Positions 21,680-49,000 of a DNA stretch of 64,000 bases are shown here, piece after piece (position 1 is the stretch's first letter; each line of letters opens with the position of its first letter). The DNA comes from Xestospongia bergquistia (taxonomy: Eukaryota > Porifera > Demospongiae > Haplosclerida > Petrosiidae): contig OZ014425.1 in NCBI GenBank assembly GCA_963965975.1, positions 4,291,501 through 4,355,500 on the forward strand, in the 5' to 3' direction. Made by a program: the position numbers and the translations under genes. Under the pieces are notes generated by a model, which searched no databases, had not been told where the DNA came from, and saw only the letters and a list, made by a program, of their open reading frames with translations.

Positions 21680-24600
21680 TCAATAGTTTATAAGAACTGC
21701 CACTACAGATAGCACAATAATTATATTGGTTATTACAGGAGCAAGAACGAGAGAGCCACTATTGACATCTTCATTCAATGTTTCGTCTCCATTTATTGAT
21801 GTAGTGTTACTAGCACTAGTGTTAACATTATTTGACACATTCTTCTGAACTGATTTTTTTCCTGCAGGTCCTAAGTTCTTTGTTATGGTATCTGTCTCTA
21901 GAGCTTTCGGAGGATTGTTAATCAATTCCACTAATTCCTTGCTTGCAGCAATACATTGAGTGTCATGTGCACCACCGACAGCTTCCAGTACAATAGAAAG
22001 GTCACCTTTGTCAGTCATTGTTGTAGTCAAGTGACAATTCTTGCTGGCAGACTCTGGGACAAGTTTACGTATGAAATTTTCCACCACGTACATGTGATTG
22101 GATTCTTTCATATCAGCTAATCCTTTAGCATTTGGATGTATACTAACAGCTGCACCTATTGTAATAAGTAATAATAATAATACTGTACTAAGAAAATGCA
22201 TATATGAAGGTTCTTACCACATACAGGACAACATGAGTCTTCTGGTATAACAGTGTTTTTACACTTAAGTTGAGCACATCGCTTGGCTTTTCTTACTTCT
22301 TCACAAGACTTCTCTCGTGAGAGGCTGATAGATGGATAGATAAATGGATCGATAAATGGATAGATGGATGGATGGATAGATGGATGGATGGATGGATGGG
22401 GTCAGCTTACTCATCAGCAAAACATTTTCCATAGTAGTCAATTCGTACAGAGTGAGTTTTTGCATGACAGCTAGATTTATATGTAACCCCTGTACTTCCA
22501 CACACTTCTCCTTTACACTGATCAGGTCGACAGGGTCCAGTGTAGGCCAACTTCACTTTTGCTTTATGAAGATAGCAAGGAGAGGGATAGGTTTCCCCAT
22601 CACTCCCACAGACTTCAGCATTGTTAGTTTTTGGACAATTCTTTGTAGCAACTATAGATGAATTGAAGAAATAAAATAACATGGCATTCATTTGTAATCT
22701 TACTGCACATAAATTGTTCACAAGGTACTTTCTTTCCTGCAGTGTTGTACAAAGCAAAACATGGACCATTTGTTGTAGGTACACATGTTTCATCTTTTCC
22801 ACAATTGTTGAGTTTACATGGATCCTAACATTCACAATAATTATCTTTAATATGTATTAATTAATTTTGTCTTTACCTTCTTTTCACAGGGTCCCATTGT
22901 GATATCCGTCTCCTTAAGGCCAGCACAATTTACAGCATGACAAAGAGAGTTATAGGTCTTACCATTAGCTCCACATACCTCTTCTCCTTTCTTCTTTTCA
23001 CATCTGCAACAAAGAATTATAAGACACCATATATAAAATGCCTTATGTCATGTGCTATTCACTCTCTCACCTGCTGCATGGATCAAGATTAGTTGGAAGT
23101 TGAGTTGGAGAAGATTTATCTGTTTTATCACCAGAATCTGTTGATGAAAGAATAATAATGTCCATCTGGTTATTGTGTTATATAAAATTACCATTTATAT
23201 TAGCAGGAGCATTGTCAGTGCATTTGAATTGTGTACACTCAAGACGACCATTCCTACATTCACATGTGTTACATTTGATTTTGATTTTATCTCCTGGTTG
23301 AACTATACTACCATCTGGACTGGTACATGATTTATCTAATAAAACAAAGTTAACTGATGTTATTGATCTGAGATAATACCTTGGATTGTTTGTGTTGGTT
23401 CTGTCACCATTGGTTCACTAGTTGAAGGAAAAGGAGATGTGATTAGGTGTGAAGGAGGAAGAGGAGGTGTAGTTGGGGGAGAGTGTGGTCGATAATACTT
23501 TCGTCGTGGAGGCACTGGAGGAGAAGGAGGTGTATTTGGGGGAGAGTGTGGTCGGTAATACTTTCGTCGTGGAGGAGGAGTTGAAATCAAAGGACGACGA
23601 TTCTTGGGCCTGTATGTGGGACGATATCTTTGTGGTGGAGTTGTGGTTGGAGGAGAAGTTGTAGTCGGTGATGTAGCAGTAGTTGCTCCAGATTTTAGGA
23701 AGTTGTAGTGGGCAACTGCATTGGAATTTCCAGAGTAATAGAGTTGCAAGAACTTGTGGTAATTTTTTCTCTCTCTCTCAGGCTCCTTTTCCTTTATTAG
23801 CTGAACAACCTCCCTTGGGTTATCTCTTCCAGCATAACCTGTCTTCATACTATTGTCAATAGCTTTGGAAGCTCGTACAATAAACTTATACTCCCTGCTT
23901 TTTTGTCGGTCCCGAAGTAGGTTGTTTACAAAATTTTCAATATTAAACTCTAATCCTGTCAACTGTGAGTACTTCTTGAGTACAATTCTGTGATAATGCC
24001 ATCGATCCTTTCGATTCTGACTTCCTCGATTGTAATTTCCCTTTTGACTTCCCCGATTTCTGTTATGATATGAACTGGTAGGTCTGCGATAACTATTTCG
24101 TGAGCCATATCCTGAAAACAGATAACAAAGTTAAAAAATATAATACCAGTAACAAATCACTCACGTCTGTAAGCACGTTTCATTCTCATTTTGTATTCTT
24201 CAACAAATAGATCTTCTAGAGCATGTTTAGCTTCCTCCTCACTCATTATTGGGTCCATATCATCATCATCATTCTTGTCATCAATTTCTTGGTTCATATT
24301 CTCTTGCTTATCTTCAAAAGTATGGTGTGAGTTTCGCTTGAAACTGTTTGATTTTACATTGGGTTGATCCAATGAGTCCACTGTTTGCTTTTTATCACTT
24401 GAACTTTCAAAATCAGCTAGAACTTGTTCATGACTTGTATGACCTCTGTTAGGGAGATTTGTGCTTGGATTGGGTACACCTTGAGAATGGTCCCAATTGA
24501 CTTCTCTTTTAAAAGTATGAGAGTTGATGACAGCATTATGTTGTTGATTAGTATTGAGATCATCCCATTGACTTGGACCTGGTGCCATACCAAAAGACAA

Positions 24601-26830
24601 TTTTAAAAACTCATGTGCTATGTCTCTTTTCTGTCTTGTTCCAGCTTTATTAAGGGCATCAAGAGCAGCACTAGCTTCTTTAACTACTGTATTGAGTTTC
24701 TCTTTTGTTGTTGACATAATTTGACTGGTTGGTGTTTTATGTGTAGTTTTCGTTTCATGCTTCATATTTGGTTCAGGTTTTGGAGTTGAGGTTTGAATGA
24801 GATGCTGTATCTTTTGTTCATGATTAACTAAGGGTTGTGAATGTTGCTTAACAGGTTTGCTTCTTATTTTATTATGGACTAGTGGTTTCTTTAAATGGTT
24901 ACCATGGTGCTTTCTAAAGAAATGTTTTTGAGAATTAGCTTTTTTTCTTTGTTCAGGTTTCTGTTTTGTCGATGGTGGTGAACAACAGCCTTTAGTGCTT
25001 GCTTTAGTATTAGTGATACGTGCTTTGAAAAGTTGGTATTTTCTTTTAGTATATCTTTGACCATTGTAGTAATTGTACAAGAACTTGAAAATGAAGTTAT
25101 CACTATTGCGAGGCGAAGCCTTCTTCAGAACCTCTACAATTGTTTCTGGTTTGTCACTTCCCTTGAATCCTGTTTTTTCTGCTTTGAGAATAGCATCTCG
25201 TGTTTTTGTTAATTGTTCCACTTCTCTAATAGTCTTGATATTTCCCCTTCTGTATTGATTAAGATAGTGAGCAACATCTAGTTTGTAGTGGTATTTAGTG
25301 AGATGCATGAATGATTTTAAGATCCTTCGAACAGTAGGCAAGTCCTTTTTCTTTATAGCTACCTTGTTAACACGGCCATGATTCCTGTAAGGATGTCTGT
25401 GATGTCCTCTTCTTCCATTAAATCTGTGACGATAGCGATATCGGCCTCTCCTAGGTACTCGTTTAAGACCACGAACTGATCTTGTTGTTACTTTTAATTC
25501 CTCCATATCATTATCTTCAATGTTAGCCATAGAGTTTTCATTGGTTTCCTCATCAATCTTTTCTTCAGTATAAATGTTATCATCATCTTTAGGTTCATTT
25601 TCAGGTTTTATCTTCTCTTCTACTTCACCAACTTCAGATTCACTGTTAGCCATGGAGTTTTCATTGGTTTCCTCATCAATCTTTTCTTCATTCTCATCAG
25701 TATAAATATTACCATCATCTTTAGGTTCATTTTCAGGTTTTGTCTTCTCTTCTAATTCACCAACTTCAGATTCACTGTTAGCCATGGAGTTTTGATTGAT
25801 TTCCTCATCAATCTTTTCTTCATTCTCATCAGTATAAATATTATTGTCATCTTTAGGTTCATTTTCAGGTTTTGTCTTCTCTTCTACTTCATCACCTTCA
25901 GACTCATCTTTGGTTGTCATATCATCTTCTATTACTTGTACATCATCATTTTCTGTCACAACATTTGTTTCTGCATCTTCAAAATCATCAATAGCAGGTC
26001 CTTCATCTTCATTAACATTTCTGGTAATCCGGTCAGTGGTGTCTAAATCTTTGTCATCATCTTGGTCTTCTTCGTATTCCTCTTTGTCATCTTCCTCTTC
26101 ATTAAGCTCCTCCTCTTCTTGATCATTTTCTTCCTTATCATTCTCAATAATTTCTTCATCTGGTTCATCTAAGTCGTCTATTGGTTCCACTCTACCCTCC
26201 TCTTCTTCATCATCTTCTTGCTTCTCCATTTGTTTCTCCTTTTTATCATCTTCCTCTTCCTCTTGTTCTTGCTCCTCCCTCTCCTTTTCTTCTTGCTTTT
26301 TGTCCAATTCATTTTCATCTTCTTTTTCATCTTTTTTCTCTTCTCTTTCTCCCTTATCTTGTCTCTCTTCAATGTCATTTTCCTCTTCCTCTTCAGAGTT
26401 TTCATCTTTAAGTCCTTGGAATTCCTTTTCTGTTAGAGGAAGAAAGGGCCCTATAGGTGCAGGTTCATCCTTTCCTGTGTCATCACTCTCTAGGAGTCTG
26501 TTAGTTTCATCATCAGTATGTAACATTTTGTCATTCGATTTAGTGTTCTCCACAAGACATATCCCTTCCTCACGAAAGTAAGTAGCACAGTAGTATCCAT
26601 CAGGACAAGGTTCTGTATCGCTGCATTGTATAACATCTATAACAAGGTAACATGCATTTAATAAATACCCTATGTATATAATATTATATATATACAACTG
26701 ATTCCCTATAGAAAAAATAAATAAACTTACTGCTAACTCTATCGAAGTCTTCCGAGACTACACAATGCAAAGACAGCAACAAAATCATTCCATAAGAACA
26801 TAAAATTCGTTGAAAACTAGGAGTCATCAT
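21680..26830 (-). CDS. polyampholyte multi-Kazal RECK-like surface protein with two copies of a novel domain
   Basis: Ten exons: 26830..26731, 26636..24165, 24111..23380, 23335..23192, 23137..23071, 23003..22877, 22824..22704, 22651..22411, 22324..22218, 22155..21680; phases agree; 1528 aa. Order: signal peptide (start MMTPSFQ chosen; an in-frame ATG lies at 26893); [13 protein letters not shown]...GIC motif; Glu/Asp-rich region with three repeats of about 40 aa (plus-strand 25505-25880); novel domain copy 1 (about 466-570); Lys/His-rich region and cleavage-like RQKR (about 700); RMKRAYRR; novel domain copy 2 (about 890-995); Pro/Thr-rich linker; pacifastin/VWC-like Cys unit (1102-1149); Kazal; follistatin-like unit; two Kazals; VWC-like CCPVC; C-terminal domain and hydrophobic tail. 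The tail domain (C[12 protein letters not shown]) recalls the end of RECK, a GPI-anchored metalloprotease regulator. A role in pericellular protease control is inferred. Confidence 0.8.
22326..22400. repeat. (GGAT)n-type repeat in an intron of the RECK-like gene
   Basis: Degenerate GATGGATGGATA repeat filling most of the intron between the third Kazal exon and the VWC-like exon. Similar short GGAT repeats occur at 34344-34440 and 55940-56015. Confidence 0.7.
25505..25880 (-). repeat. in-frame tandem repeat coding for three acidic units of about 40 residues
   Basis: Inside exon 2 of the RECK-like gene. Units share KPENEPKDD-x-[11 protein letters not shown] and NSMAN; the last unit lacks the DENE step. 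The repeat is roughly 120-126 bp and stays in frame, so it varies protein length without breaking it. Likely a recent local duplication. Confidence 0.8.
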
Positions 26831-29769: not shown

Positions 29770-32700
29770 CTAATCATCCCAATCATCATCCACTTCCTCG
29801 ATATCAGTGTCCTCGTCATCCGATGTTGTCATGGCACTTCGTATGCTAGTCAACCTCTGATCCAAAGCATTTGAAAAAACATCATGCAAACCACCACCTG
29901 ACGACTTAGGGTGAGTAATTTCCTCTTCTTCCTTTCTTTTCAATAAAGTCTTGGCAAGTTGGAGGTCATTAGCTGAGAAAGGGCGCCCCCCTGCTGCCGG
30001 AGGAGGGGTTTCTTTCTGTGGTAATGACACTGTGTTACTACGTCTTGATTGAGAGGGAGAGTGACCATCTGACGGGAGGGCAGGTGGAGGAGGGGGAGGA
30101 GCCGGAATACCTAGAGTTCAAAATATAGTATACCACTTTCATTTGATGTGGTTGTACTATAACAAAACTAATATAAGTTTGCTTGTCTCTGCTATGCACT
30201 CTCAACTGTTCTTTGTTCTTATTGGAAGAGAACGCAATAAACAACTGTTTTACAGTTAATACAAATGATACTGGCTCACTATCTATCCATTAATAGTTGA
30301 TCTATTCATTCAATCACCCATCACTAAATACATTCTTGTCTATTCATTCCTATACTTCATATATTAATCTTACCTCCAGGTGGAATAGGGGGAGGGGGTG
30401 GAGGACCACCTCCAGTGCTAATAACAGGAGGAGGAGGAATCTCCTTTGCAGGTAAAGGAGGAGTGGGTGGAGCTAATTTAATCACAGTATCCATGTATTC
30501 CACAGGACGATTTTTTTTCTTGAGGACTTCAGGAGTTTGAGAAGCATGGCCATTTGCTGTTGGTTCTTTAGGGGGAAGAGGTGGAATAGGATTTTGATCT
30601 TTAGGAGGCAATGGTGGAAAACTATTGGATGTAGGAGGAGGTATGTCATTTTTAGGAGGGAGAGGAGGAATTGAGTTGTTCTCTATCTTTGAAGGTAAAG
30701 GGGGTAGATTTGTAGACGAGAGTTGTTGTGGTTGTTGTGGTTGGTTAGGAAGAGGGAGAGGGATATTGTGACGGTCTGGCTTGGGTGATGGCTGTTTTGA
30801 CGGAAGAGGAGGTAATGGGTTGGGTGTGGTAGAGAGAGGGAAATTGTGACAATCTGGTGTGGGTGATGGCTGCTTTGAAGGGAGAGGAGGTGGAGCTGAA
30901 AAGTCACGATGCTCAAGTCTTGTTGAGCCTTTTTTGGGAAAATTTGGAGAAAGGATTGATTTATCTTTGGAAGGCAAGTCAGGAAGACCACGAGCATTTG
31001 GAAGATGTAATTCTCCTTTTCCAGGCAATTGGGGAAGAGGTCGACTGGAGAGACCAGTATTTTTCTGAGGGAGACCTGGTAGTGGCCGTTGCAACATTGG
31101 TTCTGAGCCTTTACGAGCTGTAGGACCTTTACCAGTAAATGATGTTCCTGAGTCAAAACTGAGGCGTGGATTGGAAGTGACAGTTGCTTCACTTTGAGGA
31201 ATGGAGGGCAAAGGTCGGTTTGTAAAACTTGATTTATTACCAGTTTTAGGACCCATTGTCTGAGATTTAGATATTGGAGGAGGATTAGGTGCTGGTTTGG
31301 GTTTTTCCCATACTGACTCTCCAGTTTGTGTGTTGTAATAATAAGGCCTTTTATGGTGATCGTCAAAGAACTCTTGCCATGGAGGTGGCAGTGCATTAAT
31401 TTGTGACAAAAGACGCTGGATGTCAGTTATGGTTATGGGACGTATCAGAAAGATCTTGGCACCAGTTCGTGCTTTGCTGCGGAGAGGAACAGTTCGATGA
31501 TGGTCCAGAAGTTCTTGAATGCTGGAGAATTTTTTCTTGGGAGTGATAAAGAATTTGCCATCTGTTGGATCAGTGTTGATTTTAAAGTTCAAAATTGATG
31601 ATTCACAGCTGGAGAAGGGAAGTTAAAATAATTCTCCTGACATATCCTAGAATGCACTAACATGTCCTAGAATGCACTGACACATCCTAAAATGCACTGA
31701 CATATACTAGAGTTCACGGGCATATATCTAGGGTACACAGCACATTGTACATGAGACATCATGAGAACATTTTCTAATCACTAACTGTTCAATATACAAA
31801 GGACACAATTATCTCCCCTTGCTATTGTTTGTTGTTAGTAATATTAGCCAAACATAACTAGTCTCATTTGGACTACTTGTGTGCATTAATGAAGCAAAGT
31901 TATTTACTAAGATCTCTGCTTCTGAAACAAGTTTCCTAAGAATACTTGTAATAGTGATTTCCCTATTTCAAATGTATACACATGTTCAATACAATTACAA
32001 ACGAAAGCCTTAAAACTTATCGTTATTATAATTGATGTAGTCCATAATCCAAATAACTAGAGACAAAAGTCTAAAGGTGTGTGGGGTGTTCTCATGTCAG
32101 CAATACACTATAATTTGTATGTGCGTCACATAAAGTGGAGACAAAATTCTACCAGTCTGTCGTCATAATAAATCTTACATCAGCTAAAATAGGGTTTGTC
32201 TAAAGGTGTTATCATTATGGGGAATACCCTAACGTTTGTATGTATTACATATACGTAGAGACAACAGTCTAAAAACGTAATACTTATGAACTACTCATGC
32301 AAATACTCTTACGTCAGTGATATAGTATACTGCCCTTTACTGGAGACACTCGGACGCAGCAAATAGGAGCCATCCTGATCAAGAAAAGCTGACAAGACAA
32401 CTGGCACCTGTAAAGTACACAGAGAGAAAGAGAGATTAGATAGGGCAGTAACCATAGTATTAGATCATGTTACCAAAACAGAGATCAATTATATTAATTA
32501 GCTACTCTACAAATAACTATACAAACAATAGTTAATCAGCTACTCTACAAATAACTATACAAACAATATTTAATTAACTATTCTACAAATAACCATAGAG
32601 ATACCATTGTGTAAATTAAACAAATGTACTCTCAACATTATAACATAAAGTAGTTTTTGTTGAAGTAAAGTCTTTACTTGACACAACACTGATAGGTTGT

Positions 32701-33759
32701 ATCGTAATAACATTAATATTCTACTAAACAAAAGTCATAATATCCTTTAAATTAACACTTATCTTAACAACTACCCTTCATGTAATGTGTTAAGTCACTA
32801 CAATACAATTACTATGGTAGTTATAAATACATCAACACATTTCAAATATGGACTGGGCGTAAACAGAATGGGTAAACTTTGTAACTGGAGTAGCAAAGTT
32901 GAATGCATAGATACTAGAGGTACTAGGAAAAGCCTTGTGAAAACAATGCACCTTCCTCCATTCATAGCAAAGTTGAATGCATAGATACTAGAGGTACTAG
33001 GAAAAGCCTTGTGAAAACAATGCACCTTCCTCCATTCATAGCAAAGTTGAATGCATAGATACTAGAGGTACTAGGAAAAGCCTTGTGAAAACAATGCACC
33101 TTCCTCCATTCATAGCAAAGTTGAATGCATAGATACTAGAGGTACTAGGAAAAGCCTTGTGAAAACAATGCACCTTCCTCCATTCATACTTAATGGACGT
33201 AAACAGAATGGTTGTAATCCAAGTAAGTCTATCTCTATTCATTGTTAAGTACACCAGTGGTAGTGGGTGGATCTTGTATAAACATTAGTAGTGAATTTTA
33301 CATTAACAAACACAACAGGGAAATATTTCAGAGGAGGAGTTTTCACAATCTCTTAAGCAAACATAGTCTAAAGGACAAAATGTTGTCAAAACAGATAAGG
33401 ATTCGAATTATAACTTTTCTACTGTATCAATTGAATAAGCCCGCCCTCTCAAAAAAGGTTTGTTCCGCTTTTCCTTTTTTGTAGAAAATGTATTATCATA
33501 AAAGTTATCAATAAAATCTGGCGGTTTCTTTGACTTAATGCCAATGAACTCATCAAAGAGATTTACATTTTGATAGGAAAGTGTGTCATGATGAGATCAT
33601 ATACCTCACAACTGCAATACTATATTAGTATCAAAGAAATAATAACCAATACATCTTTACATGCCAAGTATTAAGCTAACATTATTTAATCAATATATAT
33701 ATATATATATATATATATGCATATATATACAAATACACATTTATATATATATGTATGTA

Positions 33760-33797
<38 letters not shown>

Positions 33798-36787
33798 TAA
33801 TTATATATATATATATACAAAACCAAAGATAATAAAGGTATAACAAATTATTACATAGGCCTACACACTCCTAACCACATTCACAACATCTAAATACATA
33901 CTAGAATATATCTACAAGTCAAATGTACTCCATTACTATCAGGACACAGGATACTATCAGACCACAGGATGGTGTTAGAATGACAAAGGATGTTATGCCA
34001 GTAGGGATAATTCTAGTCTTAATAACATACATTAAATGTGTGTATGTACAAATTTATGATACAAGTTGTATAACCACAAAAAAATAGTATAATTTCTAGG
34101 TTTGTTAATTTGCTATATATCTGATCATAGATAGTACTAGCCTGAATGGGCTTCCCTCTTTTCCAAAGTAGAATGCTTTTAAAATTTACTTATAAAGTAA
34201 TTTATAAATTCAGGACATAATGGTTGATATGTGAGTGATGGTTGTAATGAGTTGGTTTAATTATGAGATAGAACCAAATGATATAATGAGTATTAAGTCA
34301 TAAAACATGGAATAAAAGTTGATATAAAATAAATATACTGTTAGTGATGGATAGATGGATGAATGGATGGATGGATAGATTGCTGAACGAATGGTTGATG
34401 TGATGGATGGATGGATGGATGGATAGATAGATGGATTAATGGATGAATAATTAATATATCTATTATTCTAACTCTATGGAGAATATAATATACAAATACA
34501 AAAACAATAAATACAATATCTCAATGGGAAGTCTACTATATCTCACGACTTCACAATAGACTTGACAATATCAATAAATTAATCTACAGAAACAAGTCAC
34601 AATGTACCAACATCACTTGACCCTCTGTTTATATAATTAATTACTTTCTGTTTTTATATGATCATATTCTCTACTTACTACATTATCAGCCAATTATGCA
34701 ATATCAATATCTTATATCATATCTATGCTTTGTTTCTACAGTTGTGTAAGTACATGTGGTCAAAGATATGTAAAATGATAGTCCATAACTCATATTACAA
34801 CAGTTATTGTATTAAGTAAAGAAATGCCAACAACACTACAGTATCCTAAGAGAAGCCACTCAATTAACAAGGGACTACACACTGAAACTAAATAAAATAT
34901 TTTTATAAGATAACACTTCTAACTTACATCATTCTTTGATAAATTTAAATGAACTCCAGGCAAATTTGCAAGGTTGTCACATTTAGGTTCACTTCCTCCC
35001 TTTTCTCTTCCTCTCTGAGTGGGTACTCCTCTTTCCCCTCCTCTTGGATTCGACCCCCTTGCTTGAGGTCCTGGTCCATTCGGAGTGGCTCTGCTATTGC
35101 TTGTTGAGGGTTCTGAATTAAATAGAGAACAACATTAGATACATGTAAACCTATCTGTGTCTTTAGATGGTAGAGATGACATGAATGGTAGGATAGATAG
35201 ATGGTTGGAATAACAGACAGAAGGAAGGATGGTTGGAATAACAGACAGAAGGAAGGATGGTTGGAATAACAGACAGACAGATAAACAGAGACATCACCAA
35301 TACACTATTGTGTTCTGTTATGTTGCAGGACTTGTATGTCTTTCTATATCAGTATTATGTATAATTACAGGATATACATTAAGTAGAAGTATTTGATATT
35401 AAAGCTGCTAGAAAAACAGGACATGAGGTTAGGATTACCGTGGGCATGAAAGTTCCAGATATTCAGATGTTGGTCTAGTGTCTCCTTTTAGCTTTAAACA
35501 AAAACGACATAAGGATTAATGTGGGCATTTAAGTTCAAGATTCTCATTATGAAACTGAGTAGCCAGCCTATTGTCTTTCACAAACTTTAAATAAATAGAA
35601 CACAAGGTTCCTCTTAGCCTGGGCAGCTAAGAGATCAAAGGGACACCTATTAACAAATCTAGCCTTTTACTGCATGATATAAGCATTGTCATAGGAAGTT
35701 AACCCTGTGTATCTACATACTCCTTCTAGCTGTTCCAAACATCTAGACATAAGAGTAAGCACCCAATGTCTTCCTTTACTATAGTAATCTTTTTGATCTA
35801 TACCTTGACACTATTATAAAAGCATACTTAATTTTAGATCAAAAAATCTATATCAGTTCTGAAGTTGTAACTATTGCAGGATATAACCACACACACACAT
35901 GTACATGTACATGTACATGTATACACATGGCACTGGTAAAACTCTAACATCATCAACAACAACAACAACAATAGAGTATGACACAGTATTTTCCCAATTA
36001 TAGCCATAATGACTACAGACAGTGGGCATAACTGTAATATGCTGTGTCATCATACTCTGTACTGTCTAGGGTTTTTCTAGTGTAGTAAATCATTGTAAAG
36101 TATAGTAAAATCTCAGATCAACAAACTATGTTAGTTTTGAAGATATAATGCCCTGGAATTTAGAGAATATCTACTAATTAGATTATTGGGCTGTACTACT
36201 GTATAGTATAGTCAACCAGTTCAGCTATTATTAAGCATTTAAGTCTGAGATGTAATAAATAATCCAGCTGCTAACATCATAAAATACAAGAAAACACATT
36301 TGGAATGTATTTTGGAAGTACATAGTCAACCAGCTCAGCTATTAATAAGCATTTAATTATGAGATGTGATTTAGTCCAAAAGAATGGATATCAAATAATC
36401 CAGCTGCTAACATCATCAAACATATCTACTATGAAAACACATTTGGAATGTATTTTGGAAAGTTACGATATTACAAATATTGTATTGTATAGATAATAAC
36501 AATAGATTTGAATACTGTAATGACAAACAGACAGACAGACAATGAGTATTACCTCCGTGACCTGTAGGTGGTACCAACGCTACATATTCACTGTTACTGT
36601 GATCTTGTGGTACAGGATAGAGTAAAAAAGTTTTGACTTGTTCGTTGAGGGGAAACTTTTTATAATATTGTATAAGTGAACTAATGGATGGGAATTTGCT
36701 ATCCCTTATGAAATAGTGACCAGTTGTTGTGTCTCTAAAGAGACGGTAATTCATTAGCTTCTGATTGTTACTATAATGTGTGTGTGG

Positions 36788-36818
<31 letters not shown>

Positions 36819-39800
36819 AAACTATGCTGGCAATAATAACTGGACACACATACCCCACCCACAATAATATACATGTAATTCATGATGTACCAACGTAATA
36901 AGATAACTTTAATTACAAATATTAACTTCTCAATTATTATATAGATTAGTGATTAATATAACTATATCACCTTGAAATATCTACCTAATGAGTTAATAAC
37001 AGAACATAATACAATTATACTTATCAAAGCTCAATACATTGTTGGTACTGAGTTCAGCATTAAAACTAACACCAAATTTGATCATGTTGAAGTGGATGAA
37101 TGTAATCATGCTGAACAGTTATTACATAATAATTATTATTATACAATATTCATTAATATTCAAATTACAATAATTGATGATATATTTTTATATCTAGATA
37201 CAGTAACAAAAATACTAAAGAAAATAACAGTCATTTTTTTATTTCACAACATTATATACTAAATTGCCCAATAAGATGAGTAATGGTTAGCATAGGAAGA
37301 TCTCCCTAGAATCAATGCATTCATTGGTTGTAAACTAACTCAATTACTCTTTTACTAACAAAGCATAATTTAAATACAATTAATAACAAGATCTACGTTA
37401 ATACCATTAGATGACTCCCACTTCAATGTGAATGAATTCAACTAGTAAAACCATACTTAATAATAGAGTATTTAGAGGTTTTCTTTAAACATGTAGGACA
37501 TTGAAAACGTAGTCATATTTCTCTAAGATCTCTTAGAAGTAAGCCATTAAATGAATCGCACACTTAGTCATACTTATGAAAGGAAGTTTATGCCAGTAAA
37601 GTAAAAGCGGGAGAGTCCATGAGAGGATTGTACAATGAGATCATTTCTTCAAAGTCAAGTCATGAAAGGAGAGAAAAGAACAATGACAACTCCCCCGTAC
37701 AGCTTCCATTTCATCCTCCAGGTGGTTAAACTCAAAACTCCATAACAATTTGTTAATTTAATAACAATTAGTTGAAAAGAATTTAATGTAGAACAAAATT
37801 TATGACATACTGGATTAATTTAACATAAGACTACTAATTTTGATGAATAATTGTGGGTCATAAATCTCTGTGACAGAATATTAGGTGAATCCTTATAGAT
37901 ACTATGTTGTCTTTTGGTTGTTACAATCAAATGGCCATTACATTAATAGTAATGACAATATGTTATATGTAAGTGTGTGAAGATTTAGTTGAATAGTAAA
38001 GTATATAAATAGATTGGTAACATCTTTTAAATAGACCAATAATTTTAATAAAACACAAGTGTGTTTGAAGTCTATGACTCTTTCTTCAGGTGGCAGGAGA
38101 GAAGTGAGTGTAAAGATAGTTTGTATATTGTTTAGAAAAATGATTCAAAAAATTAATTACAATTTTAGTTATAGTAATGACAACCAAGTCATATTATTGT
38201 ATTGAATACATTCATTCACTGTAATGGCTGAGTTTTAAGTTAAAATAATAATATTTTTGTTAAAACCAAATTAGTAGTGCAGTCAAAACAAATCATAATA
38301 TACTGTCTGGTACAATCATGTGAGTCTGACCTCACTACTAAATGGTATCGAGTAACCAATTCAATTAAAATTGTGGTAAGAGAAGTCTTTATTATGTCGC
38401 TAAGTAAAGCAAATTATCAGATATCACAGTCTCAAAATTTGAACATAGTTGATTTTTTTCATCAACTTGTTATTAAAGAGGATAAAGTCAGAGTAAGTAA
38501 GTCATATTACTACTTGTGATGTCAGTACACTCACTAATAGTAATATTGTATTATGTCATCAGTTTGTCTTCCTTTATGACATCAATACTCATTTCCGCCC
38601 ACTTGAAATATTTTTATTTAATAAGACAATATTAATGATTGCTTATAAATAATGACATGATGTATGATCTGAGCATACAAGATAGGTAAGTACTTAAAAG
38701 AACTAGATGATACTGGAATCATGATTACCTGACACATATTGTACATACAATACTATATTACATGATACTGGAATCATGATTACCTGACACATATTGTACA
38801 TACAATACTATATTACATGATACTGGAATCATGATTACCTGACACATATTGTACATACAATACTATATTACATGATACTGGAATCATGATTACCTGACAC
38901 ATATTGTACATACAGTACTATTACATGATACTGGAATCATGATTACCTGACACATATTGTACATACAATACTATATTACATGATACTGGAATCATGATTA
39001 CCTGACACATATTGTACATATGGCATCTCCATCAGTTGGTCGTAAAAGATAAAAACCATCAGTAGCTAAATGAGGAGCTATGATCTGTTTGGCCTAATGG
39101 ATGAATGGATGATGGATATAATAGATTAATACATGTTCAGATAGAAGGATTTATGGCAGAAAGAAAGAGAGTCAAAGAATGAATGGATATATTAAGGGAC
39201 AGACAAGCTATAAAATTTATCATATTATTATTATTTTGTAGACATAACAAAACTTAACAACTATATTGCCGTCCCTATCTTTTACTATGATACAGTAATA
39301 ATACCCCTATTACTACAGTACCAATGTCCCTATCACTATAATACTAATGTCTCTATTATTACAGTACTAACGTCCCCAACACTATAGTACTAATACCCCT
39401 ATTACTACAGTACTAATGTCCCCATCACTATAGTACTAATACCCCTATCACTATAGTACTAATGTCCCTATCACTACAGTACTAATATCTCTATTATTAC
39501 AGTACTAACGTCCCCATTACTACAGTACTAATATCTCCATTATTACAGTACTAACGTCCCCATTACTACAGTACTAATATCCCCATTGATACTAACCTTG
39601 TCTTTGGACACAGGAAAGTAGCCAGGAGTGGCTTGCAGTTCAGCTGTGATGAAAGACAATGAAACGAGAGTTAAACAATGATTTCAATATAAGCAAGAGG
39701 ATTCAGAGATAAACAATACTATTTATTTAATTGAAAGACTAATTTAAAATCACTTTATTATCATTCCATTTGTATTGTTGCAAGTTAGTCATAATTGATG

Positions 39801-41139
39801 AACAATTAGATAACGAATAGCATCTAACAAGTATCATGATTTAAAAATTTAAAATATGGAAGGAAACTACATTCCAAAACTGTATGTGGTCAACTGTAGG
39901 TACTTTTACCAGTTATGATAAGATCTTTACATAACAACCTGGTCAGGTAAATGAACTATGAACAAATTAAATTTTACAATTCCACTAAATGGTACCACAA
40001 TAAGATGGTGTCACTGTTAGAATAAAGGAAGATATAACATTAATAAGTGCTGAAATGGCAAATACAGAACTAAGCTACTGCTAAGAAAGCAAGCAAAAAT
40101 CTTTTCAGTGATTAGTAGTCAGTCATTTCTATTGTTATTGACATAGCATAGCACAATAGATCAGAATACACTAGTTTGTAACATCCCTTTGTATACAAAT
40201 AAATATGTCCATACATGAATGTCCTAGTAGTAATGAAGTAAATCATAGAGTAAATACTAGATAATAGTATTGAGGGGAATTTACTAACAATGACTAAGTC
40301 TTCAATAAAATGAAGTAAGTCTAGATTGTGACATTACATCATATATACTGATACTAAATAACATGAGATAACATGTTATCCATCAGTACTATAAAGTGAT
40401 TTAATTATATTATACAGACACAAACACAGACATTGGAAACAGGCTAAAGATTGATTCAATTACATTTACTAGTCACTAGTACAGTGGTTGATATCACATT
40501 TTGAGATCACATCAATCATGCTACACATACATAGTAAAATATGCTGCTGATAGCTAGTTAGGCTTAAATCAATTTTAAAGTGTAGTATGACATGTCAGCA
40601 GTGAGGGCATGATGGTCATGTTTGCAATACAACCATTGTAACTTCATTAATAAAGAATGTTTAGGTGGTATGAAGGGATAGTCCCAGGGAAAATTTGCTT
40701 CCCCGTTTAAATTGTGAACATCTGTTGATCTTCTTATTTAATATGACATAGAAACAAAGGCAACAATTGTGGGTGTGGCAACAAAATTTCACCAAAATTA
40801 ACAAACTAAAATCCTTATCAAAATTCCCATTAACACTGATATTAACAATATTTAGATATGATACAAACAAGATACTGTACATCACACCATTGTTAATAAA
40901 CTCTTATTAAAATTATTAAGGGAAGTCATATACATCCTCTGTTATAACATTCACTTTGCTGTGGATGATCTAGCACGTTATATAACAATATTAAAGTTGT
41001 GTAACATATGTTATTACAAGCTATGCTCTGTTAATGACACTTATTAAAACATATTATATTATTACTATTGTTATTATTATTGTTATTATTATTTTATTAT
41101 TATTATTATTTTATTTTATTTTTTTGACAAATGAAACAA

Positions 41140-41185
<46 letters not shown>

Positions 41186-41246
41186 GCAAAATATGTATAG
41201 ATCCTTTATGATAAGTACATGAATGAGAAAGCAGAAATAAGTAAAA

Positions 41247-41295
<49 letters not shown>

Positions 41296-41570
41296 TATTA
41301 TTAAGAGAAGTCATACTATCATAGCTAGAATATTACTGTCCCAATTAATACAGTAGTTTATTGATCCAATAACAATAACCTACAGTTGCTCTTATTGCCT
41401 AAACCAAGTTATGCTATATCATAAAGGAAACACTTCCTAGTATAACATGATAGATGACATACCACAAATTAAATGTAATAGCAGATTATAAGACTATAGT
41501 GTCTTAAAGCATGTATCTTGTTAAGTTTCTTGTCAGTTATTTGAATAACTGATAAGAATTTACTGAAAAG

Positions 41571-41612
<42 letters not shown>

Positions 41613-42307
41613 TAGTATTATATGTATAGATAGATGAATAGATGGATGGATGGTTGTTTACAAATTACATATTACTCAAAAATTCAAGTTATTATTCAAC
41701 ATGTTATTAAATAAATCACTTAATATGTACAACATATACACATAGAGCAGAATCCTCATATACAGTTTGACCATAAACCACATGAACTAAATATACTATT
41801 ACATGTACTATAATATACTACTGTGTGTACAATGATTATAAGGCTTCGAGTACATTTTAGAAAATTGATTGGGGACTATTAGAGGTAATTTCCAGTACAA
41901 ATCACCTTAATATACTAACACCTGTGAGGGAGGTTGACGTTAGCTAACACTAATATATCTACTCAACACAAAAATAACAAACACAGTCAACACAATAAAG
42001 ATACATTAAGCTAACGACATTGACATAATATAAATGTTGACAAGAGCAGCCATACATTGTAAGTAACATATGTGGAGAGTTTATTCAAAACATTTATGAT
42101 TTACTGTTACTTCACTATGGTCTGTTTAGAAGAAGGTATATATATACAAGGTCTGTTCTAATGTGAGCACATGTTAAGCATGTGAGATTACTATAGATAG
42201 TAGTGGTTAGTAGTAAGTTATTAAAGAAATTGTGTGGATATGATGTTATTGTGACTGTTCTTTTTATATTCTTGTAAAGTAACGTTTATATCATAGGAAA
42301 GTACACA

Positions 42308-42341
<34 letters not shown>

Positions 42342-42681
42342 ACACACACACACACTCACTCACTCACACACACACACACACCTCACACAAACACACATCG
42401 CTAATGAACATAAGAACAACTCCTTCATTCATGTACACAACTATTTCATAAATTACTACAAACATTGGTCCTAATGGACTCTTTAGAGGTCTATAAAACA
42501 ACTTTATAATCAAATATGATGTATCCTAGTCTGTACATTAAGAGATAACATTAAGATCAATTATTAGAAATAGTTGTCATTAAATCTTGAGGGATAACTT
42601 TTGATTTCACACAAGACAAATCAATTTGGCTATTATTTAAGGTATTGAAGGTTAGCACACTACCATAATGTCAACAAATTA

Positions 42682-42725
<44 letters not shown>

Positions 42726-42829
42726 GCTAGCTAGCTAGTCTGTGGTACACACCCACTAGGGCCTCTACAGCGACTAGTGAGAGAGATGTATTTACAAGAA
42801 ATAGCCACACACCTGACATGGTTCTATAT
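29770..42829 (-). CDS. SH2-SH2-WW-polyproline protein with WASP-like C-terminal CA (Arp2/3) region
   Basis: Eight exons: 42829..42823, 39643..39597, 39093..39002, 36770..36553, 35112..34928, 32407..32313, 31608..30374, 30110..29770; phases agree; 739 aa. SH2 no. 1 (about 8-105): [19 protein letters not shown] with the FLVR-type Arg, then [20 protein letters not shown] and LLYPVP. An ITIM-like SEYVAL follows. RG-rich linker. SH2 no. 2 (about 168-268): [46 protein letters not shown] (about 285-316): [11 protein letters not shown]...[15 protein letters not shown]. Polyproline region with three RPLPxxP SH3 ligands and many PPLPxK. C-terminus: [20 protein letters not shown], then acids ending DDDWDD, matching the central-acidic segment of WASP/N-WASP; no clear WH2. 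Inferred role: cytosolic adaptor linking phosphotyrosine to Arp2/3-driven actin. Only 7 coding bases in exon 1. Confidence 0.85.
31609..32312 (-). other. intron inside SH2 no. 2
   Basis: 704 bp phase-2 intron splitting the second SH2 between TISL and CESSIL. It starts near short repeats of TGACATATCCTAGAATGCAC (31639-31700). No exon seen. Confidence 0.6.
32891..33186. repeat. 74-bp tandem repeat, four nearly identical copies
   Basis: Copies start at 32891, 32965, 33039 and 33113 (TAGCAAAGTTGAATGCATAG...), in the 2.5-kb intron 32408-34927 of the SH2-WW gene. The array is bracketed by the direct repeat CGTAAACAGAATGG at about 32858 and 33198. Near-identity suggests recent expansion. Confidence 0.9.
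33693..33815. repeat. (TA)n-rich tract
   Basis: Alternating TATATA with short interruptions in the same intron as the 74-bp array. GGAT repeats follow at 34344-34440. The rest of this intron shows nothing else. Confidence 0.8.
35113..36552 (-). other. intron between the two SH2 domains
   Basis: 1.44 kb. Contains GGAAGGATGGTTGGAATAACAGACAG repeats (about 35205-35280), a TACATG repeat at 35898-35920, and a diverged duplicated segment (about 36180-36300 against 36300-36450: CAACCAGYTCAGCTATTAATAAGCATTTAA). No exon seen. Confidence 0.55.
36771..39001 (-). other. intron 3 of the SH2-WW gene
   Basis: 2.2 kb. Its 5' end is built from the 55-bp donor-copying array described separately. The rest is AT-rich with no exon fitting the frame. 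Confidence 0.55.
36787..36815 (-). repeat. (CT)n tract on the minus strand at the SH2 no. 1 acceptor
   Basis: (GA)n on the plus strand, (CT)n on the coding strand, 16 bp before the acceptor CATTATAG of exon 36770..36553. Confidence 0.75.
38711..39019 (-). repeat. 55-bp tandem array copying the exon 3 end and its splice donor
   Basis: Six units start (TACTGGAATC) at 38711, 38766, 38821, 38876, 38929 and 38984. Each contains ATGATTACCTGACACATATTG, whose reverse strand is the last 19 bases of exon 3 (39002-39020) plus the donor GTAATCAT. The final unit is the real exon-intron border; the others are copies inside the intron. Confidence 0.85.
39290..39597 (-). repeat. 23-bp minisatellite abutting the exon 2 splice donor
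   Basis: About 13 units of roughly 23 bp (for example AGTAC at 39363, 39386, 39409, 39432, 39455, 39478). On the coding strand many units read GTTAGTACTG or ATTAGTACTG, close to the true donor GTTAGTATCA at 39596 where the array stops. Confidence 0.8.
39644..42822 (-). other. first intron of the SH2-WW gene
   Basis: 3.2 kb. Contains (TTA/ATT)n tracts at about 41053-41302, (TA)n at 41573-41610 and 42686-42720, and (CA)n at about 42305-42385. No exon or other gene is supported; the long ATT-based open frames are repeat translations. Confidence 0.6.
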
Positions 42830-43044
42830 CAATATCAGTAGCTCCAGTTGAAGGACGTTCTATATCTTCTGCCTTCTAAGAGAAGCTCCTCTATCACGGA
42901 AGAAATTTTCGAGTGACGTTCAGGGGCGTAACGAGCCCCTCCCCCAAAGGCAAGGAGGGAGTTTCCTTAGGGAGAACACCTAGCTTAGTAGAGGATTATT
43001 TATTGGTAAGTTTTTACTTTTAGTAATCATTAAGTGACTTCAAG
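42830..43044. promoter_or_regulatory. bidirectional promoter of SH2-WW and Ig-receptor genes
   Basis: 215 bp between the divergent start codons, including both 5' UTRs. No NRF1-like site is present, unlike the two other short divergent promoters in the window. Confidence 0.5.
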
Positions 43045-46000
43045 ATGATTCTTCTCCTTCAGAGTATAGCTGTTGTTGCTCTCCTGCTGCAGTTTGATCC
43101 AGTCCACTCTTTTGGTGTTTCTGTAGTGACTAATTCTGCTAATTGTCAATCTTCTTGCATTGAACTTCAATGCGGAAATTTTGGCACCACCATCATCGAC
43201 TGGTTTAAAAATGGCGATAGTTTGAATGTTTCTACCAATAGGTTCAGTGTTTCTGGCAATAGTTTGATCATTAATAATATTACAGTAGATGATGAAGGAT
43301 ATTACAGCTGCATCAATACTAGTAATGCAAAATCAGTAACAGGTAATAATAATATAATAATAATACCACTCACCTTTCTTTATTTTCTATGTATTTAGTT
43401 GATGCACAACTGATACCTCTCAATACTACAATCAACCTTACTGTTTATCCTGGTGAAACATTTGTTGTAAAATGTGGCATCAAGATTGGCAGTGTGTCTC
43501 CAAAAAAAAAAATAATTGTGCTTAAGTTGATGTATAATAAATTTAAGCCATCATTGGAAGATAACCCAAATAATACTAATTGGTTAAATCCAACGTTTAC
43601 ATTGGATTACTCTTCATATAAATATGACGAATTTTTTTGTCTTGTGAGATCATCAAATGGAACATTTTATACTAACAATGACAAATCTCAATCTCAGTAT
43701 GTTGGACCTCACTATCATATTAAATGTGAGTGTTTAAAATCTCTCATCTTAATAATATTACCATTGCACTGATAATAAGAACATTTATTTTTTAAAATAT
43801 CCTAGATGCACCCAAGGTGTCTATACATGAAGCAAGAGAAGGATGCAACATGACATTGATTTGCAGGACAAGTCATCCACTTGTTAACAACAGCAATATA
43901 TCTGTAAGATGGCTAAAGGATGGACAAAACATGGGCTTGAGAGAGCACAACTTAACGATTGTCATTGCTTCGGAACAAGATGCTAACTACACTTGTATAG
44001 CTGAAGTTAGTGGAGTCGAAAACAGTGCATCCATCCAACTAAAAGCAGCCCGTGAGTTTGATTATCAAATATATATTATAATCCATAATCTACTCCTCTA
44101 AACTGACCTATGTTATGAGGAATAAATTATTATACAGTGATATCTATTACTTTATTCTTTCATTGATATTTTAATTAGTAGTACATATTATACTATAACT
44201 CTATAATATAATATAACATCTTTACTATCATTGCTATTACTATATCTATTACTAGTATACTGTAACTCTATAATATAATATAACATCTTTACTATCATTG
44301 CTATTACTATATCTATTACTAGTATACTATAACTCTATAATATAATATAACATCTTTACTATCATTGCTATTACTATATCTATTACTACAGTAGTACTTT
44401 TATTAGACTCATATTGTATGTATACACTATTGTGGTTGTGGTAATACCATAGAGTTTAGTTACTTACTATTCAAATTGACAGCAAATAAAGCTGTTTGCT
44501 GGATCATCAACCAGTTGATTTATTTAAGATTGTGTATCCTTCTTTTTTGTTGTCTTTGCTATTTTAATATTTTGTGTTGATGGTGAGCTTGCAAACTTAG
44601 GATCAACAAAGTATTTGTATCACCCACCAATCATGTCTAGTACATGTATACTGTAACTCTCTACTATAATATAACATCATTGCTTTAACTATATCTATTA
44701 CTACAGTAGTACTTTTTATATTGTATGCATGCACTGTTGTGGTTCTGGTGATACCGTACAGCTTAGTTAATGCTTATTATGCGTATTGACAACAAATAAA
44801 GCTGTTTGCTCAATCATCAACCAGTTGATTCATTTAAGACAGTATGTGCTTCTTTTTTGCTGTCTTTGGAATTTTAATATTTTTGTGTTGACGGTGAGCT
44901 TGCAAACTTAGGATCAACAAAATGCTTGTATCACCCACCAATCATGTCATAGTCAGCTATAAAGTCAATTAGATATAAACTTATTATAAATATTTTATGA
45001 AGCTTCAGTCTACTTCTCCAGTCTAAGTTTCTCAATCTAAGATAATTAAATGATTTATCATAATTAGCTTTAATAATTTTTGCCACATAATAAAACTTGA
45101 TACTTAAATATTTCTATTTTATTAAGAGTTCAGTATCTTGCCGGCTTTGTTATTTAGATTGTTTTGTTCTCAGTGTAACATCAAAGTCTAATTTACTATA
45201 TCATTTTAAGTGTTTTTATTGTTTTGTGGAAAGGAGCCACTCATGTGTACAATTAATTGATTCTTATCAGTAGTAATAATATTCATAGTCATATTGTAAG
45301 CTCTAGCTGGATAGTGTAAATATGATGATTATTAAACTATTAGTAAGTAGAGAGATCCCTTTTACCAATGTGGCTTTATCAGGGGATAGTTACTCAACTT
45401 TTATTTAGTAATAAAAGGTCAACAGGTCATGTAGACACAGGCTTCACATTATATCTGTGCCAAGATGTCATTATATCTTTGTTTGTGGAGAAACAATGGG
45501 AATGCTTTATCACTTACTTTATTGGTCTTTATAGTATTTTAAATATGATATCATTATCAATGAATATTATTATAACTATGAACATAATTCTAACTATGAA
45601 TTATTAACTAGTTGACATCAATTGGTCTAGTTACATCTATGACACAATGCCTTCACAGAGTACTTCAAATGTAATGTACTCTCATTTCAGTTATAAGTTA
45701 CATTCTGTCAGTTGTTTGTCATTGACATACTCAACAATAGCTGTGATCTTTTGACTATTTTAATAGCTATTACTAACTTTGTATAATTGTTGTTGCACCT
45801 TTTGTCCTCTCCATTGGAATTTATGAGTAATAACAGCTGACTGTGTCAGTTGGTCTGTTGCAAACATCTGTTTCGCAGCTAATAGAACAGTGTGTGTAGG
45901 CGTGTGATATTCATGCTAATTGTTTTTATTACATTTTTATTACATGACATAACAAAAGAACAAACCACAAAAATGTGCTGATTTTTAAAATTTACATAAT

Positions 46001-49000
46001 TACTTGTATCTATTTTTACATCCTGTAGCTTGTTTCAATGGAACCATTAAATTAATGGATTGTCATACACTAAATGTTATTGGGGCATATCCACATCATG
46101 TAGTCATTGGTAACATGAATTCTTCAGAGGATGCTACTTTCAACTTCACAATATCGCCTGATGATCGTTACTTGAACATCTCATATAATGTCAGTGGAAT
46201 GCTTGGACCAGTCAAGCAAATTATATTAAGATCCTTTCAAAATTGTAAGTTGTTAAATGAGTGAATTTTAACTTGTTGTTTTACAATTGTTAAGCTATTA
46301 TCTAAAGCTTTACAAATGTTGGCATACGTAGGAGGGATTGTTAACTTGATAAAACTAAGATATAGTACGATAGACTCAAGCATTGATTTAGTGTAGGGGG
46401 AAAGGATACACTGTGGTAAACTCTGTTTCCTCCAGGAGATGGAGGAGTGTGTCTAGTGATAAAAATTCCAGTCTTATCTGTGTTTTAGACGTTGTGTGTG
46501 TAGTAGAGTAAGGACTTATCTTGAGTTGTGATAGACATTGGAATGTAATGTGAAATAGGAAATTTATTTGGACATAAGACACTTTCAGTACCTGTGGCTT
46601 TTGTAAAAATTCAATTGAGTATAGTCATTGTGTAGTAGATAGTGAATCAATGCCTGAGAAGAATGATATGGTTAAGTCCATTCATTCATCTCTCAATCCA
46701 TGAATGCTATATTCATAGTTACTTATAGCCATTACTATATAGCTAATCCTTATATGCTCACTTCCTGTAAGTTCACTAATAACGTAACACACTTACTCAG
46801 CATGAAAAGGCATTAAAATCATCACACCACCAACTATTATACATTTTGCACACTTAAGCAACAGGTCCCTAGGGAAACATTGGGGGTTGCTCAAGGGAAT
46901 TTTTTTCATATAAAACAAACTGCTAATTATGGAAACAATCATAGTACAGAGTACATTGCTACAAATGTACTAATGTTTCCTGCCCCCAAGGTCTGTTTGA
47001 TGTTGCATACTCCTTGGATATGGGCATGACATTTTATGCATTGTTTGCAGGATATAGTTGTATTGAGTTATTGTGCTGAATCGATGCAGTGTTAAATAAT
47101 TAGGATTCTAAAATAGAAAAAGATCGTAACACTATTATAATTTTATAGTTGAGAATACTCCAAACTCGCCTACTCTCAATAACTATCTATTTCAGTCTCA
47201 CCGCAATATATAACCACAAGAATAAACCACATAGCCGCAAGGCCCACAACCAAATTAATTATATTACAAAAAATGCAATAACAACAAATAGGATAACTTA
47301 ATAATGACTTCCTGCAAACTTATTACGCAATTGAAAGTCACCTGATTCACAGTTTATGAAGCCTCTATAACCACCTATATTAGTGCTTTTATTGCTATCT
47401 TGTCTGTTGAATTGTATTATGATTTATTGAGCTATTTGCCCATTCATTTGCCTGGTTCTTCAATCCATCATAAGAAAAGATAAGGTCTCCTTGATCCCTA
47501 AACTATAGAGAGCTTACATATTTTTTGCTTTGGTAAAATTATTGAAACCCTTAACAGATACCTTAGACGAAGTGTATTTGCAAACCAGAAACCTCATAAT
47601 GAACATACATATCTTGAGAGTGTTTTTGTTAAACATAATTGTGAATGACATAATTTATTGGCCTCTGTTTTAATGGTAGAAGCTTCCTTATCAAAACATA
47701 ACCGCATAGTGGTTTCATTTTAATAAGATATGACAAGAACAATTGTGGTTGATGAAACATAGCTAGTTGATCAAATGAATTACTAAATGACAACTATAAA
47801 ATGTTTACTGGATCTCTTGTATGTGTTTAGGAGTTAGGAGTCTTACAATACAAAAGCAACTATTATTCTTTCTTTATTACAGGTACCAGAGAAACAATAT
47901 CATTCATGATCAATATATCAAAAGTCTGTGAAGAGAGTAAGAGAGACAAGGTACACACTCATTAGCAGCATATTGTAAAATTTGTATCATTTTAACTTCC
48001 TATTCAGTAATGAACCAAAAGTATTTAATTCAACATTTAATTCTAACCTCATATCCTACCACTGGTTGACTTTGTGTGGTCATTCCTATGGTTTAAAACC
48101 ACATATAAAACAATGAAAATGAACTGGTGACTAACAAATATATCATTAATATCTACAATAACTATTGAATTATACAGACCATTCTTCCAAACTGATTGGT
48201 TGCCACTTATGACTTGTTAAATTCCCTAGAACTAGTAAAGGAAATTCCCTGGGAGATTCCCCACTCTGTTAAGGGAAAATCCCAAATAATGACCAGCTGT
48301 TTGTGTTTTCAGACATATATATTATATATACAATAGTGATTTAATTGTTTGCAATGTTAATGGTATGCAGTTAACTACTATCAAACTATGTAAATGATAA
48401 ACATGTTATGTTAAGTAGAGATATAGAACTATAAATCTACTCCAAAGGTTAGTTCCAATTTCCCTAAGCCATTTTCCACAGATGCTTTTTGGTAACGTGA
48501 TATTAAGTTATGATAGATCCACAAACCACATAGTCAAGGTAGAGCAGGGCAGTTTATAACATGATAGCAAAATGTGACATAGTATATATTATATAAACTC
48601 TGAGTAACACTTCCTAATATGTACTTATTCGAATTGATACTATCAAGTGATGTCATCAACCAATTAGCTAGTTAGATAGTCTACTATCATACCTATCTGA
48701 TGAAGTAATGCTTTAGTAGCATTCAAAGACCAGCTTGGCATCTAAGATTCATAGAGGGAAATGCATTGGCTGACTTAACCAGCATAAGACTAAAGTTTTG
48801 TCAGTATTACTCACATGAACAGTGCAGCTAATATTGATAGGATATGACTCTCCATAAATTCAATGATATCATTAACTGTTGCTACCATTGTATATTTTAT
48901 GACTATTTGTAATGCCCAATAGTAAAGAAGAATGTGTAATGAAGTAGGAGTTATTTGGTTTGTAAAATGTTTAGTTAAGCAAGCAAAGAGATATGATTTC

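Follow-up and report, generated by a model that had tools for sequence, protein, structure and literature searches.

According to PMC4238058 and PMC9333988, vertebrates connect phosphotyrosine to the Arp2/3 complex through a relay that runs from tyrosine-phosphorylated nephrin via the SH2 and SH3 domains of Nck to N-WASP, i.e. the SH2 domain and the connector-acidic (C-A) tail belong to separate proteins brought together by SH3-proline contacts. Here we describe a gene of the demosponge Xestospongia bergquistia that lies in a 64,000-nucleotide stretch of contig OZ014425.1 (assembly GCA_963965975.1, positions 4,291,501 to 4,355,500, forward strand), the whole of which is called the window below. 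Its product, the window protein, suggests the same phosphotyrosine-Arp2/3 connection but in a single chain, ordered from N- to C-terminus as SH2-SH2-WW-proline-rich region-conserved block-C-A tail.

The window protein shares with WASP and N-WASP a proline-rich region, the spacing of hydrophobic residues and Arg in the C (connector) helix and an acidic tail with a near-terminal Trp, but it begins with SH2-SH2-WW and has no detectable WH2. A Pfam scan returned no WH1, GBD, IMD or SH3 in it, and the absence of SH3 also sets it apart from SH2-SH3 adaptors of the Nck/Grb2 type. C-A tails behind unusual N-termini are described for WHIMP, WAWH and WAML in PMC3298513 and PMC7112243; these proteins, unlike the window protein, carry WH2, and WAWH and WAML also GBD or IMD. 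The term SH2 is absent from the main texts of both papers, and no SH2-bearing WASP-like protein was described in the literature searched, some of the queries probably missing the slash spelling of Arp2/3.

We consider it fairly probable that the product of this gene regulates Arp2/3 in the sponge and that phosphotyrosine recruits it without an intermediary. Such a regulator would most likely act as a nucleation-promoting factor, an activity deduced entirely from sequence. The initial annotation had proposed a possible phosphotyrosine-reading Arp2/3 activator, an interpretation that our analysis partly supports. By the strict WH2-C-A definition the protein is not a member of the WASP family, because no WH2 was found in it.

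The same architecture, which the initial annotation had suggested looking for in other sponges, was indeed found there. Protein searches, the last of which scored the 8000 candidates with most words in common and may thus have missed relatives in choanoflagellates or other animals, yielded 57 distinct proteins, among them many single-exon frames; the named organisms are three sponges, Amphimedon, Halichondria and Oscarella. The best of the five proteins given by the first search, and the closest named relative, was P0001, an NCBI prediction of 695 residues from Amphimedon queenslandica that has the whole architecture and matches the N-terminal 345 residues with 57% identity at 98% coverage. 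The gene model P0041 of Halichondria panicea (NCBI, 680 residues) is likewise SH2-SH2-WW-Pro-tail, and P0044 of Oscarella lobularis (606 residues), a homoscleromorph, is a one-SH2 form, i.e. SH2-WW-Pro-C-A-like tail. Public records call these relatives 'serine/arginine repetitive matrix protein 1-like' (P0001 being 'serine/arginine repetitive matrix protein 1-like isoform X2') or 'uncharacterized'. Of the proteins retrieved, P0038 to P0040 have a WW but are not related, and the status of P0037 is doubtful.

The window gene encodes 739 residues in eight minus-strand exons running from 42819 to 29770, and all seven introns have GT donors, AG acceptors and compatible phases. Both the eight exons and the order SH2-SH2-WW-proline-rich region-acidic tail, as initially annotated, are confirmed; the start codon was corrected, its ATG lying at 42819 and not at 42829. 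The features are as follows, all on the minus strand and, unless stated otherwise, placed by exon joining.

42813..42819, minus: exon 1, coding part ATGTCAG, with the donor GTGTGT in phase and an N-terminus in agreement with P0001 and P0041
39597..39643, minus: exon 2, start of the first SH2 domain (SH2-1)
39002..39093, minus: exon 3, SH2-1 with the FLVR-type Arg R36 (codon 39040-39042; also Pfam)
36553..36770, minus: exon 4, remainder of SH2-1 and the SEYVALVP motif (Tyr111 codon 36584-36586; also comparison)
34928..35112, minus: exon 5, linker and start of the second SH2 domain (SH2-2)
32313..32407, minus: exon 6, SH2-2 with the FLVR-type Arg R201 (codon 32354-32356; also Pfam)
30374..31608, minus: exon 7, remainder of SH2-2 (to ~31428), WW (~31293-31397) and most of the proline-rich region (from 31292; also Pfam)
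30495..30497, minus: codon of Tyr586 in a conserved EY(E/M/T)(D/E) motif (from the motif in homologous frames)
29770..30110, minus: exon 8, end of the proline-rich region, conserved block, C helix, acidic tail and stop codon (29770-29772)
29926..29991, minus: conserved block at the WH2 position (tail alignments; neither Pfam nor a custom profile identifies it as WH2)
29827..29907, minus: C helix and flanks (tail profile, spacing pattern, shuffle test)
29773..29826, minus: acidic A segment, ending in DDDWDD (also tail profile)

Although exon 1 codes only for ATGTCAG, the resulting N-terminus still agrees with MADLVSIPGYF of Amphimedon and MAAELERVHGFH of Halichondria. A 55-base tandem repeat (38707-39020, minus) spans the 3' end of exon 3 and its splice donor; the 25-base donor stretch occurs there in six mismatch-free copies, the genuine donor being the first and the other five lying in the following intron, so that decoy donors are present. 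A 74-base tandem repeat is present in four perfect copies (32891-33188) in the intron that separates exon 5 from exon 6.

The initial annotation had raised the possibility that the SH2 exons and the proline/tail exons belong to separate genes. Introns of up to ~3.2 kb and a gene model predicted from genomic DNA speak for such an artefact, in which two adjacent genes would have been joined. Against it, every junction is canonical and in phase, and P0001 and P0041, two NCBI gene models, hold the whole architecture in one predicted protein. P0007 runs as one open frame from SH2-2 through WW and the proline-rich region to the tail, with one apparent read-through intron in SH2-2; P0002 links SH2-1, SH2-2, WW and the proline-rich region, and P0006 links both SH2 domains. 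Since P0001, P0041, P0007 and P0002 carry SH2 together with proline or tail parts in single frames or predicted proteins, separate genes are very unlikely, and together with the in-phase junctions they largely rule out the artefact, to which we attach almost no probability.

Pfam recognised the SH2 domains (5e-22, two stretches) and the WW domain (4.3e-12), both above the curated cut-off, in line with the domains first annotated. The FLVR-type Arg, also reported there for both SH2 domains, is present as R36 and R201, and it is kept in all 12 SH2 domains read over this strand (two each from the window protein, P0001, P0041, P0009 and P0006, one each from P0007 and P0044). Binding of phosphotyrosine is predicted from these profile matches and the intact arginines.

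At the other end, the translated exon 8 closes with DDDWDD, as had been noted. Fourteen tails were compared, i.e. 13 of demosponge type (window, P0001, P0005, P0007, P0008, P0017, P0019, P0021, P0025, P0028, P0034, P0035 and P0041) and that of Oscarella (P0044); near-copies (P0026 and P0027 of P0025, P0045 and P0046 of the window) were omitted from all tail counts. Alignment A3 comprised 12 tails, leaving aside P0041 and P0044, and alignment A8 was made without P0007, P0034 and P0035. When the A3 profile was run against 177635 PDB sequences, the C-A segment of N-WASP accounted for four of the five matches, including the first (best E 0.018), with an ungapped C helix in which the conserved Arg and Ile are aligned with their N-WASP counterparts. 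The Halichondria tail alone retrieved N-WASP in five of seven matches, including the top four (best E 0.028), and the Oscarella tail alone in three of three (best E 0.56).

These searches bear on the alternative that the protein is simply an adaptor of SH2, WW and polyproline parts, its acidic end being unrelated to Arp2/3 and resembling WASP by composition. Of the four PDB searches that used a tail, three placed N-WASP first; all 14 tails have an acidic C-terminus with a Trp, and the helix Arg is kept in 13 of them and replaced by Lys in Oscarella. A shuffle test, in which the target's helix was shuffled 1000 times and its acidic part kept, gave the same indication: with a profile that included Halichondria but neither P0007 (which has a four-residue helix deletion) nor P0044 (used as a target), no shuffle out of 1000 attained the score of L005, the WASP of the same sponge, or that of the Oscarella tail. 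We therefore judge the plain adaptor decidedly unlikely.

The spacing of the helix is also that of WASP. The published C helix has three large hydrophobic residues, each three residues apart, then a basic doublet and a hydrophobic residue (PMC3298513). The spacing hydrophobic-x3-hydrophobic-x3-hydrophobic-x2-R/K-x3-hydrophobic, set after the sequences had been seen and looser than the published pattern in admitting F and W and one basic residue instead of two, occurs in 13 of the 14 tails (not in Oscarella), in N-WASP and in the own WASP, and is absent from the own WAVE; by this looser form these 13 tails have the C helix expected of the WASP family, with a single Arg at the doublet position in the window protein. 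Among 20000 shuffled helices each, it arose 36 times for the window, 68 for P0041 and 89 for P0025. Identity with Amphimedon amounts to 40/45 in the tail, compared with 138/272 aligned residues in the proline-rich region and 24/62 in linker 1.

Several observations weigh against a phosphotyrosine-recruited Arp2/3 regulator, and some of them favour the plain adaptor. The E-values of the PDB searches are marginal, and the search with the window tail by itself produced two matches, neither of which is N-WASP. In the shuffle test, human N-WASP stood only weakly above its shuffles (56/1000 reached its score) and the own WAVE was not matched (80/1000), so the similarity is partly one of acidic composition. 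The alignment of that test moreover pairs N-WASP with a four-residue gap after the Arg, unlike the ungapped A3 match, at a place where Halichondria, included in the profile, lacks four residues, and the register beyond the Arg is therefore not firm. Compared with Halichondria, the window tail (17/42) is conserved no better than the SH2 domains (45/96 and 41/102). Beyond the tail, both demosponge SH2 domains have, by eye, Asn in strand D in place of the usual His of Src and Abl; neither GBD, WH1 nor another known regulatory domain was recognised by Pfam, and WH2, part of the WASP-family definition, went undetected. The evidence as a whole nevertheless supports a relationship of the tail to WASP-type C-A, the human match leaning on acidic composition; the WASP-like C helix and acidic tail of the initial annotation thus stand as a similarity and not as proof, the window tail alone failing to retrieve N-WASP.

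The lack of a clear WH2, likewise annotated at the outset, was borne out: Pfam gave none in the window protein (E up to 1), and with the limit raised to E 10 it gave none among 12 tails. The position where WH2 would be expected is occupied in all 13 demosponge-type tails by a conserved block of ~20 residues. Nine of its residues are invariant in the 12 tails of A3 (G2, R3, P4, F5, D9, L10, K14, L16 and L17), and among these Halichondria deviates only at K14, which is R there, and at L16, which is M. This GRPF block resembles by eye the WH2 of WIP. A custom profile was built from seven WH2 of the own genome and five human WH2, and blocks were scored against 500 shuffles each, P0017, P0021, P0034 and P0035 being left aside. 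Eight of the 10 blocks were not preferred over their own shuffles, the number of shuffles scoring at least as high being 285 for the window, 246 for P0005, 206 for P0025, 142 for P0041, 131 for P0007, 128 for P0019 and 84 for P0008, with P0028 unscored; the exceptions were Amphimedon (P0001, 8) and Oscarella (P0044, 6). A PDB search with the block returned one unrelated match (E 0.81). As a WH2, the block is thus unsupported by Pfam, by the PDB search and, for 8/10 blocks, by the shuffle test. Oscarella has SSLLNEIKSFGGTGGKLRAM at this position, a WH2-like helix by eye on which Pfam is silent, which is weak evidence. The demosponge block is possibly a remodelled WH2.

These results are where a different function has to be weighed, i.e. 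that of a competitor which binds Arp2/3 through its C-A tail without delivering actin, so that recruitment by phosphotyrosine would sequester, restrain or poise the complex. Arpin, an acidic-tail inhibitor of Arp2/3, provides a model. The absence of a Pfam WH2 and the poor showing of most blocks against their shuffles are what such a competitor would predict. Acidic-only inhibitors of Arp2/3, on the other hand, have no C helix, which the window protein possesses besides its A segment; the conserved block occupies the WH2 position with polyproline runs nearby, and the Amphimedon block and the Oscarella helix do exceed most of their shuffles. We regard a competitor as rather unlikely, yet deserving of consideration.

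For a phosphotyrosine-recruited nucleation-promoting factor, a plausible course of events can be outlined. The tandem SH2 domains would dock on tyrosine-phosphorylated receptors or scaffolds, and the proline-rich region, with its SH3 motifs and polyproline runs, would collect SH3 proteins and profilin-actin. Contact with Arp2/3 would fall to the C helix and the W-containing acidic tail, as their similarity to WASP C-A suggests, while the actin itself may come from profilin bound to the neighbouring polyproline, from the conserved GRPF block or from both. The stretch from WW to tail, which places a proline-rich region before the tail as in the WASP family, has 344 residues, 28% Pro, 11 class II SH3 motifs (PxxPx[KR]) and two six-proline runs. 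Its proline-rich region contains a single tyrosine, Y586, and the surrounding EY(E/M/T)(D/E) motif is found in 21 of the 26 homologous frames judged to reach this region (it is missing from P0007, P0008, P0012, P0017 and P0044). EYVALVP, which follows SH2-1, is kept in close relatives and not in Halichondria. Both tyrosine motifs, including the EYE(E/D)-type motif of Y586, may be kinase sites that serve SH2 self-binding or feedback.

More tentatively, with somewhat less confidence than we would need to prefer it, these proteins could form a sponge WASP-like class, SH2(-SH2)-WW-Pro-C-A, that leads from phosphotyrosine to branched actin in one polypeptide and replaces WH2 by a new actin-delivery element, GRPF-x3-DL-x3-K-x-LL. 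If so, the class would be at least older than the split between demosponges and homoscleromorphs. One protein with both ends would represent a minimal phosphotyrosine-to-actin switch near the animal base, performing a job that vertebrates divide among separate proteins; such a chain would favour the Nck-N-WASP link as an ancient functional unit, and a C-A protein without WH2 raises the question of its actin source.

In both SH2 domains, two introns fall at matching alignment columns with matching phases (phase 0 at SKDK|AKQII in SH2-1 and SKND|VPVVL in SH2-2; phase 2 within S49 and T215), and the two domains therefore look like a tandem duplication. SH2-1 of the window is closer to SH2-1 of Halichondria (45/93) than to its own SH2-2 (29/93), which places the duplication before that split. 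The sole SH2 of Oscarella is closest to Halichondria SH2-2 (37/94), and, provided that the Oscarella model is complete, the simplest reading would be that a single ancestral SH2 was duplicated in tandem.

In the own genome (146 Mb, 21 contigs), we found a canonical WASP on contig C10, with WH1, WH2 and C-A close together, a WAVE-like VCA on contig C4 (L006) and matches to P34-Arc/ARPC2. As a canonical WASP is encoded in the same genome, the window protein is additional to it and not a replacement. The tail exon gave a single match in this genome. Three WH2 matches of equal score lie within ~75 kb on contig C4 (G000:C4 8772640, 8813208 and 8846630; L006 to L008) and are possibly tandem copies; L006, the sole one read, ends in the WAVE-like VCA. 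The piece covering SH2-2 and WW matched itself, one SH2-like/WW paralogue (L015) and two weak matches. L015 (G000:C4 ~1334746-1334997; 122-397 and 1351-1890, plus) has the C-terminal half of an SH2-like stretch followed by WW, with 38% identity over the SH2-2/WW part. It differs in that the frame read has no C-A tail and gave no SH2 match over the cut-off, and in the frames preceding it, possibly of another gene, one of which matches a death domain weakly (E 2e-4, narrowly missing the cut-off) while another is coiled-coil-like. Sponges may have used the SH2-WW combination more than once.

Head-to-head with the gene, ~0.2 kb from its start codon, lie frames of an Ig-domain protein (43027-50278, plus; I-set 6e-7, Ig_2 4e-7). 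Downstream in the same interval there is a likely transmembrane segment and a long tyrosine-containing tail with no kinase match, possibly separate from the Ig frames. A long series of frames follows at 50900-62568 (minus), of which 52088-55270 was scanned and gave fibronectin III and DUF642 matches below cut-offs; it is probably a large extracellular repeat protein. Finally, the acidic low-complexity frames at 831-2453 (plus) and 24157-26757 (minus), mutually inverted, have stretches in common by eye, e.g. DVISCSDTLPCPD, and look like a diverged duplicate pair.

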